Assembly (NCBI RefSeq): GCF_023566055.1
Contig: NZ_JALIQP010000001.1
Coordinates: 310,001 to 374,000 of the forward strand
DNA length: 64,000 nt
DNA from: Halosolutus amylolyticus
Lineage (GTDB): Archaea; Halobacteriota; Halobacteria; Halobacteriales; Natrialbaceae
Reading direction: 5' to 3'
Under the pieces are notes generated by a model that had not been told where the DNA came from, made no database searches, and saw only the letters and a list, made by a program, of their open reading frames with translations. The position numbers were made by a program, and so were the translations under genes. This document shows, one piece after another, positions 27,885 to 52,215 of the stretch; position 1 is the first letter of the stretch; every line of letters begins with the position of its first letter.

Positions 27885-27989
27885 CCGGTTCCGGGAGTCG
27901 CAGTCCGAGGGTTATTCGGCCGTATTCGATGCATATTTTTGACACCACCGGGGGAAATTATATCCCGTATCTGTCCGAAGACTTGGCCG

Positions 27990-29501
27990 ATGAGTCCGGG
28001 CCGATCGGGTGAGCCGTCTCGCGAGCTACTCCGCTGTGCCGACGTTCTCGGCGCGTTCGGCGTGACGGCAGCGGAGGTTCGGGCGTTCGCCGCCCGGGCC
28101 GGATCGACGCCCGGACGTGACGATTCGAGCGCCGAGCGTGCGGACTCGCTCGAGACGGTTCTCGCGGCGCTCCTCGCCGACGCCGACGATCGGACGGCGC
28201 TGGTGCGTCGACTGATCTGCCGGAGCGACCGTGGCTTCTCCTGTCCGGCGCGGTACGACCACGACGCCCTCGAGGAAGCGCTCGCGGGGGTGTTCGAGAG
28301 CGTCGACTGGCTGTTCGAACTGCTGGAGACGCGGGACGGACTCCTCCTCACCGCGGCGGATCCGGTGCGGCGGCGACGCGAGCGAACCATGAGCTATCCG
28401 GCGACGCCGCTCGGAACGAACAACCTGCCGGCAGTCCTGTACGCGATCAACGAGGCCATCCTCCGCGGAACGGACGCCCGCATCCTCCTGTTGTCCACGG
28501 AGGCCGATCGCTGGCGGGCGGCGTTGATCCGCGAAGACGACCTCGATCGGCTCCAGCGCCGGTACGGCCGCCACATCGGGGTGTTCGATCGGCCGCTGCG
28601 CCCGGCAGACGACCTCGCGGCGTACGTTCCCGACGCCAGCGCCGACGCGGACGAGGTGAGCACCGACGGCCCGTGGCCGGCGTGGGCCCACGACGGGGCC
28701 GGAGCGGGAGCGGGTCCCGGCCAGTCCGCGTCCGAGTCCGGCGACGGGAACGGTGCGACCGGCGTTCCGGCCGCCGAAGACGCGGGAGCGCGTGACGACG
28801 GAGCGCGGACCGGGAGCGACGGCGGTGAGGCGACGGTCGACGCGAACGCGGTAGAACGACTCATCGAGGAGGCCGAACCGGACGGCCCGGACCGCATCGA
28901 CGCCGGACGGGCGACGGCGGAACGGGGCCGATCGGGCGACGCGAGCGAGAGCCACCCGGACGACGCGGACGACGGCCGATCGGCCGCACAGGAAACCACG
29001 GTGGACGCCACGAGATCGATCGACGGGTTCGAACTCAGCGGTTCGTCGGCCGTGTCACGGGTTCCCGGTGCGGCGGGCGATCGGGACGAGGCATCCGAGG
29101 ACGGAACCGACGGCCGTGAATCCGCCAGGGAAACCGACGTCTCGACTGCCGACTCCCGGACCACGACCACCGACGGGTGGTCGCTGTCCGGGACGACGAC
29201 GACCGCGCGCGTCTCGAACGACGCGTTCGGGACGGACGACGTGCCACAGTCCGAGGACGATCGCTACCGGGCGCTCGGGGCGGCGCTGACCACGGGTCGA
29301 GACGTCTCGGTCAAGGGGTTGCTCGAGGACGACGAGTTCCTGCCGTCGTTGCCCGCCGCCGAACCCGAGGAGACGCGGCTCACGTTCGAGGACTCGTTCG
29401 ACCCGGACGCGGTCGAAGAGGCGAAAGCCGTCGCCGAGGAGTCCGGGTTCGTCTGGGTCGAATCCGGGTCGATGGAAACGACGCGGATTTCGAACGGGTA
29501 A
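27990..29501 (+). CDS. Haloarchaeal hypothetical protein with acidic linker
   Basis: This 503-residue protein was not recognised. Residues 1-210 form a compact helical/alpha-beta region (FGVTAAEVRAFAARAG; GTNNLPAVLYAINEAILRG; RRYGRHIGVFDRPLRP). Residues 210-360 are a low-complexity Asp/Ala/Gly/Ser-rich linker. The C-terminal part repeats a short motif, FELSGSSAVSRV and WSLSGTTTTARV, ending in METTRISNG. The ATG at 27990 (MSPGRSGEPSREL) is preferred over an upstream start at 27939. There is no signal peptide or membrane segment. It lies between trpS and the pheS leader without an obvious link to translation. Confidence 0.7.
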   Translation: MSPGRSGEPSRELLRCADVLGAFGVTAAEVRAFAARAGSTPGRDDSSAERADSLETVLAALLADADDRTALVRRLICRSDRGFSCPARYDHDALEEALAGVFESVDWLFELLETRDGLLLTAADPVRRRRERTMSYPATPLGTNNLPAVLYAINEAILRGTDARILLLSTEADRWRAALIREDDLDRLQRRYGRHIGVFDRPLRPADDLAAYVPDASADADEVSTDGPWPAWAHDGAGAGAGPGQSASESGDGNGATGVPAAEDAGARDDGARTGSDGGEATVDANAVERLIEEAEPDGPDRIDAGRATAERGRSGDASESHPDDADDGRSAAQETTVDATRSIDGFELSGSSAVSRVPGAAGDRDEASEDGTDGRESARETDVSTADSRTTTTDGWSLSGTTTTARVSNDAFGTDDVPQSEDDRYRALGAALTTGRDVSVKGLLEDDEFLPSLPAAEPEETRLTFEDSFDPDAVEEAKAVAEESGFVWVESGSMETTRISNG

Positions 29502-29545
29502 CCGGGATCCGACGCCGACGCCGACGGCCCTGTCACGAACCCGCA

Positions 29546-29556
29546 AGGTTTTTGCC
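29546..29556 (+). promoter_or_regulatory. TATA-like box of the pheST leader
   Basis: The motif AGGTTTTTGCC is centred about 28 bp before the ATG at 29579. It has the same form and spacing as the pheA promoter in this window (GGCTTTTGCC before 36220). The region directly before pheS has no comparable TATA motif, so pheS is probably transcribed from here. Confidence 0.55.
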
Positions 29557-29578
29557 CCGATCGCGTCATCGATCGCGT

Positions 29579-29665
29579 ATGGCATCCGAATCCCGCGTTC
29601 GTGTCGGTGTCGTTCACCAGCTACCGCACAGGCGTTCGGGATTCGGCTTCTTTTTCGCCCGGTAA
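29579..29665 (+). CDS. Candidate phenylalanine leader peptide upstream of pheST
   Basis: This 28-codon ORF starts with ATG 28 bp after a TATA-like box and ends with TAA. Its last nine residues are SGFGFFFAR, so four of the last seven residues are Phe. It lies 207 bp upstream of pheS in an otherwise gene-free region. In bacteria, pheST and pheA are preceded by Phe-rich leader peptides used for attenuation. After the stop, GGCCGGTG (29670-29677) can pair with either of two downstream CACCGGC sequences (29694 or 29704), giving alternative hairpins. Whether it is translated, and whether attenuation occurs in this archaeon, is unproven. There is no clear T-run for intrinsic termination. Confidence 0.4.
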   Translation: MASESRVRVGVVHQLPHRRSGFGFFFAR

Positions 29666-29872
29666 TCCGGGCCGGTGGACCCGGCGACGGCCACACCGGC
29701 CGTCACCGGCGAAACCGACCGCGACAGGATCGCTGGCGCGGGGACGCGTTGTTCGATCGATCGGCGATCGATCGTCCGTCGCGCGCACGACGGGACCGTC
29801 CCCAGGCGCGTGCCAGCGGCGACCGGAGTCGGAACCGCTAACTGACCCACCCACGGCAATTCAGGTAAGCGA
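29666..29872 (+). promoter_or_regulatory. pheST leader region with alternative hairpins
   Basis: This 207-bp leader contains three overlapping possible stems: CCGGG/CCCGG (29667-29671 with 29680-29684), GGCCGGTG/CACCGGCC (29670-29677 with 29694-29701) and GCCGGTG/CACCGGC (29671-29677 with 29704-29710). Further on, CGATCGATCG occurs twice around a single G (29754-29774). A weak Shine-Dalgarno-like AGGT precedes pheS. The GC content makes some pairing likely by chance. Confidence 0.35.
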
Positions 29873-31399
29873 ATGCAACTTCCCGAATCACAGGTCGCGG
29901 TCGTCGAGGCCGCGAGCGCAGACGAGGCAACGTCCGTCGACGCCCTCGCTGCGGCGACCGAACTCCCACCGGAGACCGTCACCGGGGCGGTCTTCGAACT
30001 GGAAGAGGAGGGACTGGTCGCCGTCGACGAGCGGGTCGACGAAACGATCGCACTGACCGACGAAGGCCGCGAGTACGCCGACACCGACCTTCCGGAGATC
30101 CGGCTGTACGAGGCCGCACTCGAGGCCGGGGCCGACGCCGATCCCGTCTCGATGGGACGGGTCATCGGCGCGTCCGGACTCGAAGGCCCACAGGTCGACA
30201 TCGCGCTCTCGAACTACGCGCGGAAGGGGTACGGCGCGATCGAGGGCGGCGAGATCACTGCCGATCCCGACGCCGATCCGTCGGCTGACGCGGAGGCGAA
30301 CGCGCTCGACGCGCTCGCCGGGAGCGAGGAGACGCCGATCGACGGGGTCGAGATCGACGACGACACGTTAGACCAGCTAGAGCGGCGCGGCCTGCTCGAT
30401 CGATCCGAGACGACGGTCCGCGAGGTGACCCTGACCGAACGGGCCATCACCGAACTGATGGCCGGCATCGAGACCGCGGAGACGGTCGGCCAGGTTACCC
30501 CGGAACTGCTGACCAGCGGCGAGTGGCAGGACGTGGAGTTCGCCGAGTACAACGTCGAGGCCGACGCCGAGCGGTTCGAGGGCGGCAAGGTCCACATCCT
30601 GCGCCAGACGGCAGAACGCGTCAAGGACGTCCTCGTCGGCATGGGCTTCCAGGAGATGGAGGGGCCACACGTCGACGCCGACTTCTGGATCAACGATTGC
30701 CTGTTCATGCCCCAGGACCACCCTGCGCGAACCCACTGGGACCGGTTCGCTCTCGAACAGCCGACCCACATCGACGAGTTGCCCGCGGATCTGGTCGAGC
30801 GCGTCGAGCGCGCACACCGGGAGGGCGTCGGCGACGACGGCGAGGGGTATCACTCGCCGTGGGACGAGGACTTCGCGCGTGCGCTCGCGCTACGCGGGCA
30901 CACGACCTCGCTGTCGACCCGCTATCTCTCGGGCGAGCAGATCGGCGAGATCGAGCCCCCGGCGCGGTTCTTCAGCGTCGAGAAGGTCTACCGGAACGAC
31001 ACGCTCGATCCGACCCACCTGCTCGAGTTCTTCCAGATCGAGGGGTGGGTGATGGCCGAGGATCTCTCGGTGCGGGACCTGATGGGGACCTTCGAGGAGT
31101 TCTACGCCCAGTTCGGGATCACGGACATCGAGTTCAAGCCCCACTACAACCCCTACACGGAGCCGAGTTTCGAGCTGTTCGGCACCCACCCGACGACGGG
31201 CGAGCTCGTCGAGATCGGGAACTCGGGCATCTTCCGCGAGGAGATGCTCGAACCGCTGGGCGTCGAGTGTGACGTGATGGCGTGGGGGCTCGCCCTGGAG
31301 CGCCTGCTCATGCTGATGTACGGCTTCGAGGACATCCGCGACATCCACGGCACGCTCTGTGACCTGGAACTGCTGCGGGATACGGAGGTGACCTACTGA
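29873..31399 (+). CDS. pheS: Phenylalanyl-tRNA synthetase alpha subunit
   Basis: This is the catalytic subunit of the heterotetrameric class II PheRS that charges tRNA-Phe. The 508-residue archaeal-type protein has N-terminal winged-helix tRNA-binding repeats (about 1-190; ATELPPETVTGAVFELEEEG). The class II core from about 225 contains motif 2-like FFSVEKVYRND and motif 3 GLALERLLMLMYG. Phe-binding residues lie around FEFKPHYNPY-type sequence (here IEFKPHYNPYTEPS). The stop overlaps the pheT start (TGATG), so the two subunits are translationally coupled. Confidence 0.96.
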   Translation: MQLPESQVAVVEAASADEATSVDALAAATELPPETVTGAVFELEEEGLVAVDERVDETIALTDEGREYADTDLPEIRLYEAALEAGADADPVSMGRVIGASGLEGPQVDIALSNYARKGYGAIEGGEITADPDADPSADAEANALDALAGSEETPIDGVEIDDDTLDQLERRGLLDRSETTVREVTLTERAITELMAGIETAETVGQVTPELLTSGEWQDVEFAEYNVEADAERFEGGKVHILRQTAERVKDVLVGMGFQEMEGPHVDADFWINDCLFMPQDHPARTHWDRFALEQPTHIDELPADLVERVERAHREGVGDDGEGYHSPWDEDFARALALRGHTTSLSTRYLSGEQIGEIEPPARFFSVEKVYRNDTLDPTHLLEFFQIEGWVMAEDLSVRDLMGTFEEFYAQFGITDIEFKPHYNPYTEPSFELFGTHPTTGELVEIGNSGIFREEMLEPLGVECDVMAWGLALERLLMLMYGFEDIRDIHGTLCDLELLRDTEVTY

Positions 31400-33111
31400 T
31401 GCCAACCGTCGACATCGACCCCGACGAACTGCGCACGTTGACCGGCCGGGAGGAGAAGAGCGACGACGAACTGAAGACGGACCTGTTCGGCCTCGGACTC
31501 GAGTTCGAGGGGCGCACCGAGGACGGGGCGTTCGAACTCGAGTTCGCGCCCGATCGGCTCGATCGGCTCTCCGTCGAGGGCGTGGCCCGGTCGATGCGGT
31601 ACCACTACGGCGATTCTCGCGGCGTCCACGTCCCGTCGACGAATTCGGCGGAGTGGACGATCGAGGTCGACGACTCGGTCCCCGACGAGCGACCGTACGT
31701 CACGGGGGCGGTGATCCGGGACGTCGACCTGGACGAGGACGGCCTCGACTCGCTCATCCAGTTGCAGGAGAAACTCCACGCGACCATGGGTCGCAAGCGC
31801 GCGAAGGGTGCGATCGGGATCCACGACCTGACGATGCTGAAAGGGGCCGCGGCGTCCGACGGAAACCCGACCATCCGGTACGTCGGCGTCGACCCCGAGG
31901 AGGACACGTTCGTCCCGCTCGACGCGGATCGGGAGATGACCCCCGCACAGGTGCTCGACGAGCACCAGACGGGCCAGACCTACGCCGATCTCGTGAGCGG
32001 GTACGATCGCTACCCCGCGATCTACGACGATCTGGGGCTGTTCTCGTTCCCGCCCGTCATCAACGGCCGCCGGACCGAGGTCTCGACCGACTCCCGGGAC
32101 CTGTTCGTCGAGATGACCGGCACCGACCAGTGGACGATCGACAAGATGCTGACCATCGTCTGCTACGCGCTCGCGGCCCGCGGGGCGACGATCGAGGACG
32201 TCGTAGTCGAATACCCCGACCGGGACCTCGTCCGGCCGGACCTCTCGACCAAGACCAAGACCGTCGCCCACGATCGCGTCGAGACCATCCTCGGGATCGA
32301 CCTCGATCCCGACGAGGTGGTCGATCTGGCGGAGCGATCGGGTCTCGAAGCCGAAACGGACGAGAACGACGACGGCGACCTCGTCTACGAGGTGACGCTC
32401 CCGCCGTACCGCGTCGACGTACTCCACCCGCTGGACGTCATCGACGACCTCGGTCGGGCCTACGGCTTCAACGACCTCGAACCGAAGTACCCCGACGTCG
32501 GCACCGTCGGCGGCCGCCACGAGCGATCGCGACTCGAGGACGCCGCCCGCACGCAACTCGTCGGCCTCGGCTTCGAGGACCTGCTGAACTTCCACATGAT
32601 CAGCGCGGACGAGAACTACGATCGGCTCGAGATTTCGCCCGGCGAGGACGTCTACGGCGCCGGCGAGGCCGCGACGATCAAAGAGCCCTACAGCGAGGAC
32701 TACACCATGCTCCGGACGTGGGTGCTCCCCTCCCTGTTGATGGTACTGGAGAACAACACCCACCGGGCCTACCCGCAGGACCTCGCGGAGATCGGCTTCA
32801 CCGCTGAAGTCGACGAGAGCGAAAATACGGGGGTCGCCGAGGGGCGACACGTGGGCGCGGTCCTCGCGAGCCACGACGCCGGGTACGAGGACGCCAAGGC
32901 GCGCCTACAGGCGCTCGCCCGGAACTTCGACGTCGATCTCGAGACGCCGCCGATCGAGCACCCGACCTTCATTTCGGGTCGAACGGCGAGCGTCGTCGTC
33001 GACGGCGAGGAGGTGGGGCTCATCGGCGAGGTCCACCCGAAGGTGCTCGTCGAACACGACCTCGAGGTGCCGGTCGCGGCGTTCGAGTTCGATCTCGACG
33101 CGCTCCGGTAG
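31399..33111 (+). CDS. pheT: Phenylalanyl-tRNA synthetase beta subunit
   Basis: This is the structural and editing subunit of PheRS. The 570-residue length is that of the archaeal/eukaryotic type, which lacks the bacterial N-terminal tRNA-binding and C-terminal ferredoxin-like extensions. It has a B3/4 editing domain (about 90-250; MGRKRAKGAIGIHDL), a B5 domain (about 280-360; IDLDPDEVVDLAERSGL) and a core-like catalytic fold to the end. The ATG at 31399 lies within the pheS stop. It converges on the beta-helix lipoprotein gene, only 1 bp separating the stops. Confidence 0.95.
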   Translation: MPTVDIDPDELRTLTGREEKSDDELKTDLFGLGLEFEGRTEDGAFELEFAPDRLDRLSVEGVARSMRYHYGDSRGVHVPSTNSAEWTIEVDDSVPDERPYVTGAVIRDVDLDEDGLDSLIQLQEKLHATMGRKRAKGAIGIHDLTMLKGAAASDGNPTIRYVGVDPEEDTFVPLDADREMTPAQVLDEHQTGQTYADLVSGYDRYPAIYDDLGLFSFPPVINGRRTEVSTDSRDLFVEMTGTDQWTIDKMLTIVCYALAARGATIEDVVVEYPDRDLVRPDLSTKTKTVAHDRVETILGIDLDPDEVVDLAERSGLEAETDENDDGDLVYEVTLPPYRVDVLHPLDVIDDLGRAYGFNDLEPKYPDVGTVGGRHERSRLEDAARTQLVGLGFEDLLNFHMISADENYDRLEISPGEDVYGAGEAATIKEPYSEDYTMLRTWVLPSLLMVLENNTHRAYPQDLAEIGFTAEVDESENTGVAEGRHVGAVLASHDAGYEDAKARLQALARNFDVDLETPPIEHPTFISGRTASVVVDGEEVGLIGEVHPKVLVEHDLEVPVAAFEFDLDALR

Positions 33112-50768: not shown

Positions 50769-51989
50769 TCACGCCCGATCGGATGCGGGGATCCCGGCTC
50801 GATCGAGCGCCCGCCGTCGCTCGTCGTCGGTCAGCCGATAGGGTTCGAGTTCGGCCTCGAGCGGCCCCAGTGCCGCGCGCCGCCGCTGGTGGTCGGCGAG
50901 GAAGGCCGTGATCCGATCGATCGTCAGGTCCTTCAAATCGCCGCTGAGCAACTCGCCCGCGCGGTAGTCGGCGGCGATGCGTGCGAGACGCTCGTCGTCG
51001 GGTTCGAAGAAGAATCGCAGGTACTGGAAGGGGACGTCGACGGTCGGATCGCCGCCGTGCTCGCGGTGCGCCGCGAGCGTCGCGCGTCCGCCCGTGTACG
51101 CGTGAGTACGGATCGTCTCCGTGATGGTCTCGGGATCGGCCGTGAGTTCGATCGACGGCGCGTCGCCGGAGGAACTCATTTTCCCCGGCCCGTCGAGGCT
51201 CGGGAGGAATCGGCCGAGCAGGGCCCCCGGCTTGTCGACGGGAAGCGCTTCCTTCGCGGCGACGTCACGGCAGACCCGGACGTGGGGGTCCTGGTCGACG
51301 GCGATCGGGACGAGCGTCGGCTGGCGACCGGCGACGAGTTGCGGTAACAGGAGGTGCGTCGCCTGTACGGCCGGGTAGAACTGCAGGCCGACGGTGTCCT
51401 GCTCCCCGTAGACGGCCTCGACGGTCGCCGGCGTGAGGAACCTGGCGAGCCGAACGGCAATCGGGTAGATCACGTCCGCGTCGGCCGTGTCGATCACGAT
51501 CCGCGTCCGTTCGGGGTCGAAGCCGACGGCGAGGACGTCCCGCAGGTTGTCGCGCGTGTGCTCGCCGATCGACTCGAACGACTGGTCCTTCGCGAGGTAC
51601 TTCTCGTCGTCCGAAAGCGGAACGTAGACCGTTGCACCCGTCTCCTGCTGGAACCGCTTCGCGAGATACAGCGGGAGGACGTGGCCGAGATGCATGGGAC
51701 CGGAGGGGCCCCTGCCGGTGACGATCGCGTGGGATGCGCCCGACTCGGCGGCCTCGAGGTAGCGATCGACGTCCCGGCCGGCGTAGAAGATCCGCCGGCG
51801 GAGCATCGGATGATCGGGGAACCGTCGGCTCTGTTCGTCTGTGAGCGGGTCAGCCCCGAAACGCTCGAGGAGTTTCTCGTAGTCGATCTCGCCGTCGACG
51901 GCGTAGGGCGTGACGGTGAAATCGTCGGCGTCGGCGTTCGAGTCGGATGTCGGGTCGGTGCTGTCGGGTGTGTCGGTGGGCTCTGGCAT
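50769..51989 (-). CDS. trpS: Tryptophanyl-tRNA synthetase, archaeal/eukaryotic type
   Basis: This 406-residue class I synthetase resembles the eukaryotic/archaeal TrpRS. It has VTGRGPSGPMHLGH at residues 90-103, SDDEKYLAKDQSF near 130, AVDQDPHVRVCRDVA near 240 and GKMSSSGDAPS near 271. The order of these segments matches human-type TrpRS. The ATG at 51989 (MPEPTDTPDS) starts a 25-residue acidic leader; an upstream start is less likely. It is distinct from the longer trpS at 26304. One of the pair may be condition-specific. Confidence 0.92.
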   Translation of the reverse strand: MPEPTDTPDSTDPTSDSNADADDFTVTPYAVDGEIDYEKLLERFGADPLTDEQSRRFPDHPMLRRRIFYAGRDVDRYLEAAESGASHAIVTGRGPSGPMHLGHVLPLYLAKRFQQETGATVYVPLSDDEKYLAKDQSFESIGEHTRDNLRDVLAVGFDPERTRIVIDTADADVIYPIAVRLARFLTPATVEAVYGEQDTVGLQFYPAVQATHLLLPQLVAGRQPTLVPIAVDQDPHVRVCRDVAAKEALPVDKPGALLGRFLPSLDGPGKMSSSGDAPSIELTADPETITETIRTHAYTGGRATLAAHREHGGDPTVDVPFQYLRFFFEPDDERLARIAADYRAGELLSGDLKDLTIDRITAFLADHQRRRAALGPLEAELEPYRLTDDERRRALDRAGIPASDRA

Positions 51990-52215
51990 TCGATTTCGGA
52001 GGGTCGACTGCGGCGGCTGGAAGGCGATTCGAGTCCGAAAACGAGCGGAGGGAGCGATCGCCGCCGTGAGCGCCGGGTTAGGCCGCGTCGCCCGTCGCAG
52101 CGACACTGTCCGCTCTCGAGGGACCCTGCCAGCGCCACGGGCACTCGAGAGCGGACGTCATCGGGCGAACGTCGGTTCGGCTCGATAAAGAGTGTTTTGC
52201 CCCGTTCGAGCGCGA

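Follow-up and report, generated by a model that had tools for sequence, protein, structure and literature searches.

A conserved leader ORF with a terminal Phe codon run upstream of haloarchaeal pheST, a probable ribosome-mediated sensor, and a parallel Trp leader upstream of trpS2

Bacterial pheST and pheA are controlled by ribosome-mediated attenuators with Phe leader peptides, as in the trpL type. In a stretch of 64 kb of the Halosolutus amylolyticus genome (the window) a short ORF ending in a run of Phe codons lies upstream of the genes for phenylalanyl-tRNA synthetase. This raises the question of whether an archaeal synthetase operon could be controlled by a leader peptide. The features of the locus are listed below.

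29542..29553, + strand: P1, BRE/TATA-like leader promoter (CGCAAGGTTTTT), placed by the T-run-to-ATG spacing and the Haloferax volcanii start site
29579..29665, + strand: leader ORF, 28 codons, leaderless, ending GFGFFFAR-TAA, with orthologues in 125/167 haloarchaeal pheS upstream regions
29586..29595, + strand: 5' arm of hairpin H1 (CCGAATCCCG; codons 3-6), a perfect 10-bp complement of 29637-29646
29637..29646, + strand: 3' arm of H1 (CGGGATTCGG; SGFG codons, directly 5' of the Phe run), placed by complementarity and covariation
29648..29656, + strand: Phe codon run TTC TTT TTC with T5C within it (29651-29656), read from the sequence
29670..29720, + strand: hairpin H2, with an outer stem (29670-29675/29715-29720) and a covarying inner stem (29681-29687/29703-29709), placed by covariation and a covariance-model match
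29830..29842, + strand: P2, BRE/TATA-like pheS element (CGGAACCGCTAAC), conserved, a putative promoter
29873..31399, + strand: pheS, phenylalanyl-tRNA synthetase alpha (Pfam PF01409, E=4e-79)
31399..33111, + strand: pheT, phenylalanyl-tRNA synthetase beta (Pfam PF17759, B5)

The leader ORF starts with the ATG at 29579 and its product is MASESRVRVGVVHQLPHRRSGFGFFFAR, followed by TAA (29663-29665). When the sequence was re-read, the 28-codon ORF of the initial annotation, with SGFGFFFAR before the stop, was present as claimed, as was pheS 207 nt downstream, at 29873; Pfam matches confirmed the identity of pheS and pheT. It was the sole mini-ORF with a Phe run on both strands of the window. Such a mini-ORF occurred in 0.01% of simulated regions of matched dinucleotide content, and in combination with a TATA box in 0/20,000. 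On its 5' side the leader is adjoined by a 520-codon ORF (27939-29501, + strand) with no Pfam match.

For comparison 80 named haloarchaeal pheS loci were fetched together with two same-genus genomes, and the Phe leader was present in 70/83 of the first loci compared. Upstream regions of pheS were added from 90 more genomes spanning the class Halobacteria; the locus set does not include H. volcanii under its own name. By strict criteria, which score as negative a few loci with shifted or divergent leaders (L044, L077, L284), the leader was found in 125/167 distinct haloarchaeal pheS upstream regions. No leader was detectable at about a quarter of the haloarchaeal pheS loci. Leaders were mostly 25-28 codons long. 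The C-terminal Phe run was the best-conserved part of the peptide, while the remainder drifts, and the run was retained even in strongly diverged leaders such as MAPDTAARTNRLAAAGRGVGFFFA and MATGPATTPQAPYPTTDRDGSAFFFPRR. Most leaders had three or four Phe codons within their last 9-10 codons, the arrangement of cognate codons expected of an attenuator. The run was spelled with mixed TTC and TTT across leaders, indicating that selection is on the codons rather than on the letters and excluding simple nucleotide conservation. Lack of conservation in relatives had been named as grounds for dropping the leader; alignment showed the opposite: the start and stop codons, the distance to the promoter, the Phe run and the RNA structure are all kept across the class Halobacteria. 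Judged by comparison of sequences, the leader is a real, conserved, coding-type ORF. No credible Phe leader was found at 23 pheS loci of non-haloarchaeal Halobacteriota. One contig labelled Candidatus Pacearchaeota (L005, PWGL01000012.1) carried a leader and a Natrialbaceae-type pheS 90% identical to that of the window, and is probably mis-binned. Matches to pheS were split in two, by a different frame or a short gap, at G006 C4:54937-56514 and G011 C1:935395-936896; these may be sequencing errors or genuine breaks.

The TATA-like box noted upstream of the leader was located as TTTTT at 29549-29553, 30 nt ahead of the ATG. The first T of the box was 29 or 30 nt ahead of the start codon in 68/70 leaders, which is the geometry of a leaderless mRNA. 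In H. volcanii dRNA-seq the 5'UTR of pheS (HVO_2948), of 150-250 nt, is reported to hold a uORF of 26 aa with a pI of 5.9 (PMC4983044, Table 2). The sole start site mapped there for pheS is the one at the uORF, and no additional one is marked at pheS itself (PMC4983044, Table 2). This map suggests that the leader and pheS share one transcript. The orthologue that we infer from this match to be Haloferax-like also has 26 aa and a pI of 5.9, and begins 212 nt before pheS.

The statement that pheS has no closer promoter fails at the sequence level, as P2 (29830-29842) is conserved before pheS with or without a leader. A P2-like element was present at 97/125 leader-bearing and 33/42 leader-lacking pheS loci. 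Applying the box-to-start spacing of P1, a P2 start is predicted about 5 nt upstream of the ATG of pheS, giving a near-leaderless pheS mRNA, and P2 transcripts of pheST could bypass the leader. A start directly before pheS had been put forward as an argument against the leader. Promoter-like sequence was found there, but the start mapped in H. volcanii is at the uORF only (PMC4983044).

Two hairpins were found around the Phe run. In H1, across the class, CCGAATCCC in codons 3-6 pairs with GGGATTCGG in the GFG codons. The arms were paired in 96.4% of cells in an alignment of 61 distinct sequences, compared to 15-65% for slid versions, and covariation was above that of 500/500 shuffles. Some paired changes altered both amino acids, as with CTC at codon 3 and GAC (Leu, Asp), or AGC and GCG (Ser, Ala). 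Another compensating change was Ser to Pro with GGA to GGG. In the window H1 ends one base 5' of TTCTTTTTC.

H2 is located downstream of the ORF, its GGYGGA strand starting 7-13 nt past the leader stop in most loci and its 3' end lying approximately 50-165 nt before pheS. Its purine internal loop (GGA/GAA, tandem G-A) was invariant (69/69 loci); four of these loci were left out of the H2 alignment because their 3' anchor was misplaced. The inner stem varied freely in sequence with its pairing retained: 87.6% of cells were paired compared to 69.8% in shuffled alignments, and covariation was 0.454 (0.157 shuffled; reached in 0/500). H2 was the most strongly covarying element. RNAalifold predicted it independently. 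A covariance model found one strong copy in the genome of the window, at the pheS leader, and matched 50/116 genomes at a strict cut-off with one copy each, rarely two. No conserved pairing of H2 with the pheS start was noticed. The initial annotation had described two mutually exclusive pairings of GGCCGGTG with CACCGGC sites. Both exist in the sequence of the window, but the structure conserved in the class is H2 instead, and the exclusive hairpins were rejected as a class-wide feature, the apical CACACCGG partner occurring mainly in the Natrialbaceae sequences of alignment A1. A T-box or other Rfam family was also rejected, the only match being a chance one to mir-646 (E 0.07) far under the gathering score. 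A kink-turn (L7Ae site) was rejected as the internal loop of H2 is symmetric and has no three-nucleotide bulge.

A T-run had been reported as absent. This must be qualified, as the Phe codons themselves read TTCTTTTTC; a scan for bacterial-type terminators found no terminator-like site before pheS and none 3' of H2. T5 or longer was present in the Phe run of 36/75 GFxFFF leaders, against approximately 7 expected from pheS codon use, and TTT made up 21% of their Phe-run codons against 4.7% in pheS. Conservation of a T-run rather than of Phe was ruled out as the sole cause because TTC TTC TTC was the commonest form (31/75). Since about half of the GFxFFF leaders lack T5, a U-tract is no strict requirement, and the Phe codons are treated as a hypothetical terminator. 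The motif most used for intergenic termination in H. volcanii is reported to be a T stretch (T5C), which was confirmed in vivo, and hairpins lie ≤10 nt upstream of 503 termination sites (PMC7237163). In Methanococcus aCPSF1 is reported to bind U-tracts (PMC8716108).

A second leader was found in the same window, on the other strand.

52078..52161, - strand: Trp leader ORF MTSALECPWRWQGPSRADSVAATGDAA upstream of trpS2, with an H1-type hairpin (34 loci)
50769..51989, - strand: trpS2, second tryptophanyl-tRNA synthetase (Pfam PF00579; ORF frame)

WR, WRW, WRWW or WQWRW was present in the leaders at nearly all trpS2 loci inspected. A hairpin, TCCGCTCTCGAG/CTCGAGAGCGGA or TCCACTTCCC/GGGAAGTGGA, carried the Trp codons in its loop; across 34 loci it was 96.4% paired and showed double changes. 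The 3' arm was in another reading frame in L305 and L320 and past the stop in L290, which indicates that the RNA and the Trp codons are kept separately. At one trpS2 locus (L316) a stop codon was inside the leader. In Natrialbaceae the 3' arm could alternatively pair with a downstream TCCGCTC, which is followed by TTTTC. The plasmid trpS genes of Haloferax mediterranei, H. larsenii and Natronorubrum aibiense, to which the trpS2 of the window is related, have a leader of 23 aa that contains two or three Trp codons. The H. volcanii tryptophan--tRNA ligase (HVO_A0127) is reported to be preceded by a 23-aa uORF (PMC4983044, Table 2). It and the 26-aa uORF before HVO_2948 are almost certainly the orthologous leaders. 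The Trp leader evolved separately from the Phe leader, and its presence in the same window makes the leader-peptide reading more general. No convincing leaders were found before pheA/PDT, trpC/IGPS, TyrRS or the first TrpRS in the sampled Natrialbaceae, and no clear leader upstream of Ile/Leu/Val-type synthetases. In four genera a 13-codon leaderless uORF, MVGVRFTGA(L/S)AR(F/Y), was conserved before a likely ThrRS gene (L324-L327), with a GTAGGTG/CACCTAC hairpin and a single Thr codon (ACA).

The attenuation proposed for pheST is supported by this conservation and by the trpS2 parallel, and the locus would respond to Phe supply. The leader is likely to be a ribosome-mediated sensor of charged tRNA-Phe controlling pheST in cis; its putative working parts are a stalling ribosome, a switch between H1 and H2, and an output step. 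Transcription from P1 would give a leaderless mRNA, and translation of its first 28 codons would begin immediately. With Phe-tRNA plentiful, the ribosome would pass the Phe codons and reach the stop; there H1 could fold again in its wake, the U-rich run of Phe codons would be exposed and the ribosome would clash with the outer stem of H2. With Phe-tRNA short, it would halt on the Phe codons, covering the 3' arm of H1 and the U-tract and leaving H2 free, and more transcripts would run on into pheST. The favoured output is transcription read-through, where H1 and the Phe-codon U-tract would act as an archaeal terminator masked by the stalled ribosome; we are less sure of this output than of the sensor. 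Folds were calculated over 61 leaders after masking 27 nt for the ribosome, the footprint size given in PMC12482152. A simulated ribosome on the Phe codons lowered P(H1) from 0.61 to 0.01 while H2 stayed at 0.63. On the stop, P(H1) was 0.61 and H2 was modestly weakened, from 0.61 to 0.37. In this model the position of the ribosome could act as a switch. Weighing against the sensor reading are the modest computed effect on H2, the possible bypass from P2, the leaders that lack T5, the haloarchaeal loci with no detectable leader, and L221 and L223 (two genomes of one genus), which have lost H2 and P2.

Other readings of the locus were weighed against these data. It is possible, though we would not favour it, that the same sensor acts through H2 and that stalling alters the translation of pheS or the stability or processing of its mRNA, not termination. 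The strong covariation of H2, the lack of a terminator-like site after it and the absence of T5 from about half of the leaders would all fit. So would L221 and L223, where only 35-37 nt separate the stop of the leader from pheS, a distance suited to translational coupling. Such an output is harder to reconcile with the distance of H2 from pheS and with the lack of any noticed pairing between them, and the P2 elements suggest that pheS is translatable from a near-leaderless mRNA. Those same elements, kept at loci with and without a leader, allow a reading where pheS is in practice transcribed from P2, with P1 giving a separate, small transcript that interferes with pheST or does not act on it. 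This we consider unlikely: no additional pheS start site is listed in the H. volcanii dRNA-seq data (PMC4983044), L221 and L223 retain the leader without P2, and the Phe codons would stand beside the Phe enzyme by mere coincidence.

An operator made of RNA only, with H2 binding PheRS, tRNA or Phe (autoregulation or a riboswitch) and the ORF secondary, is slightly more improbable again. The invariant tandem G-A loop and the essentially single strong copy of H2 per genome suit it, but it leaves the Phe run, the promoter spacing and the reading frame unexplained, the leader persists without H2 in L221 and L223, and no Rfam family matches. We give little credence to the leader peptide as a functional small protein, even though the H. 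volcanii uORF was published as such by Babski et al. (PMC4983044) and the start and C-terminus are conserved: its middle is not conserved, its N-terminal changes track H1 pairing and it has no Pfam match. In addition, the trpS2 analogue may stop before the 3' arm (L290) or hold that arm in another frame (L305, L320). The initial annotation had also allowed for a chance ORF. Class-wide conservation and the simulation rule this out for practical purposes, and no point in its support was left after the comparison.

The sensor reading has parallels in bacterial Phe attenuators. In both, a short ORF ahead of an aminoacyl-tRNA synthetase operon contains several cognate codons in a row, and in both, according to the fold model for the haloarchaeal case, a stalled and a terminating ribosome would expose different hairpins. 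The haloarchaeal leader differs in being on a leaderless mRNA with an archaeal promoter, in having its Phe codons after and not inside the first hairpin, and in the second promoter-like element (P2) before pheS. It also has no bacterial-type terminator before pheS, the candidate terminator being the Phe-codon U-tract. T-box riboswitches likewise control aminoacyl-tRNA synthetase genes by tRNA charging, but they recognise the tRNA through direct RNA-RNA contacts and have no translated leader. The T5C motif and upstream hairpins resemble archaeal aCPSF1/FttA U-tract termination (PMC8716108; PMC7237163). In the available text of these papers the known sites are gene ends, and a ribosome-masked terminator within a codon run is not described (PMC8716108; PMC7237163). 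The uORFs of Babski et al. (2016) share the long 5'UTR and the start site at the uORF (PMC4983044). In the available text of that paper they are reported only as small proteins in long 5'UTRs, and cognate Phe or Trp codons, hairpins, conservation and attenuation are not discussed (PMC4983044). No archaeal leader-peptide attenuator was found in the open literature searched. What appears to be new in the searchable literature is the logic of Phe/Trp sensing, together with the hairpins and the conservation across the class; the H. volcanii uORF had already been recorded as a small protein.

A fuller reading is offered tentatively. Haloarchaea may have separately built attenuation on leaderless mRNAs, where the U-rich Phe codons would be both sensor and terminator, the stalled ribosome would mask a U-tract that otherwise recruits aCPSF1/FttA, and a parallel Trp leader would serve trpS2. 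If true, archaea would gauge amino acid supply through ribosome position, by a Phe leader found class-wide and by an independent Trp leader. The idea could be tested directly in Haloferax volcanii, for which a start site has already been mapped, and if true it would offer a simple in vivo test of archaeal transcription-translation coupling and U-tract termination.
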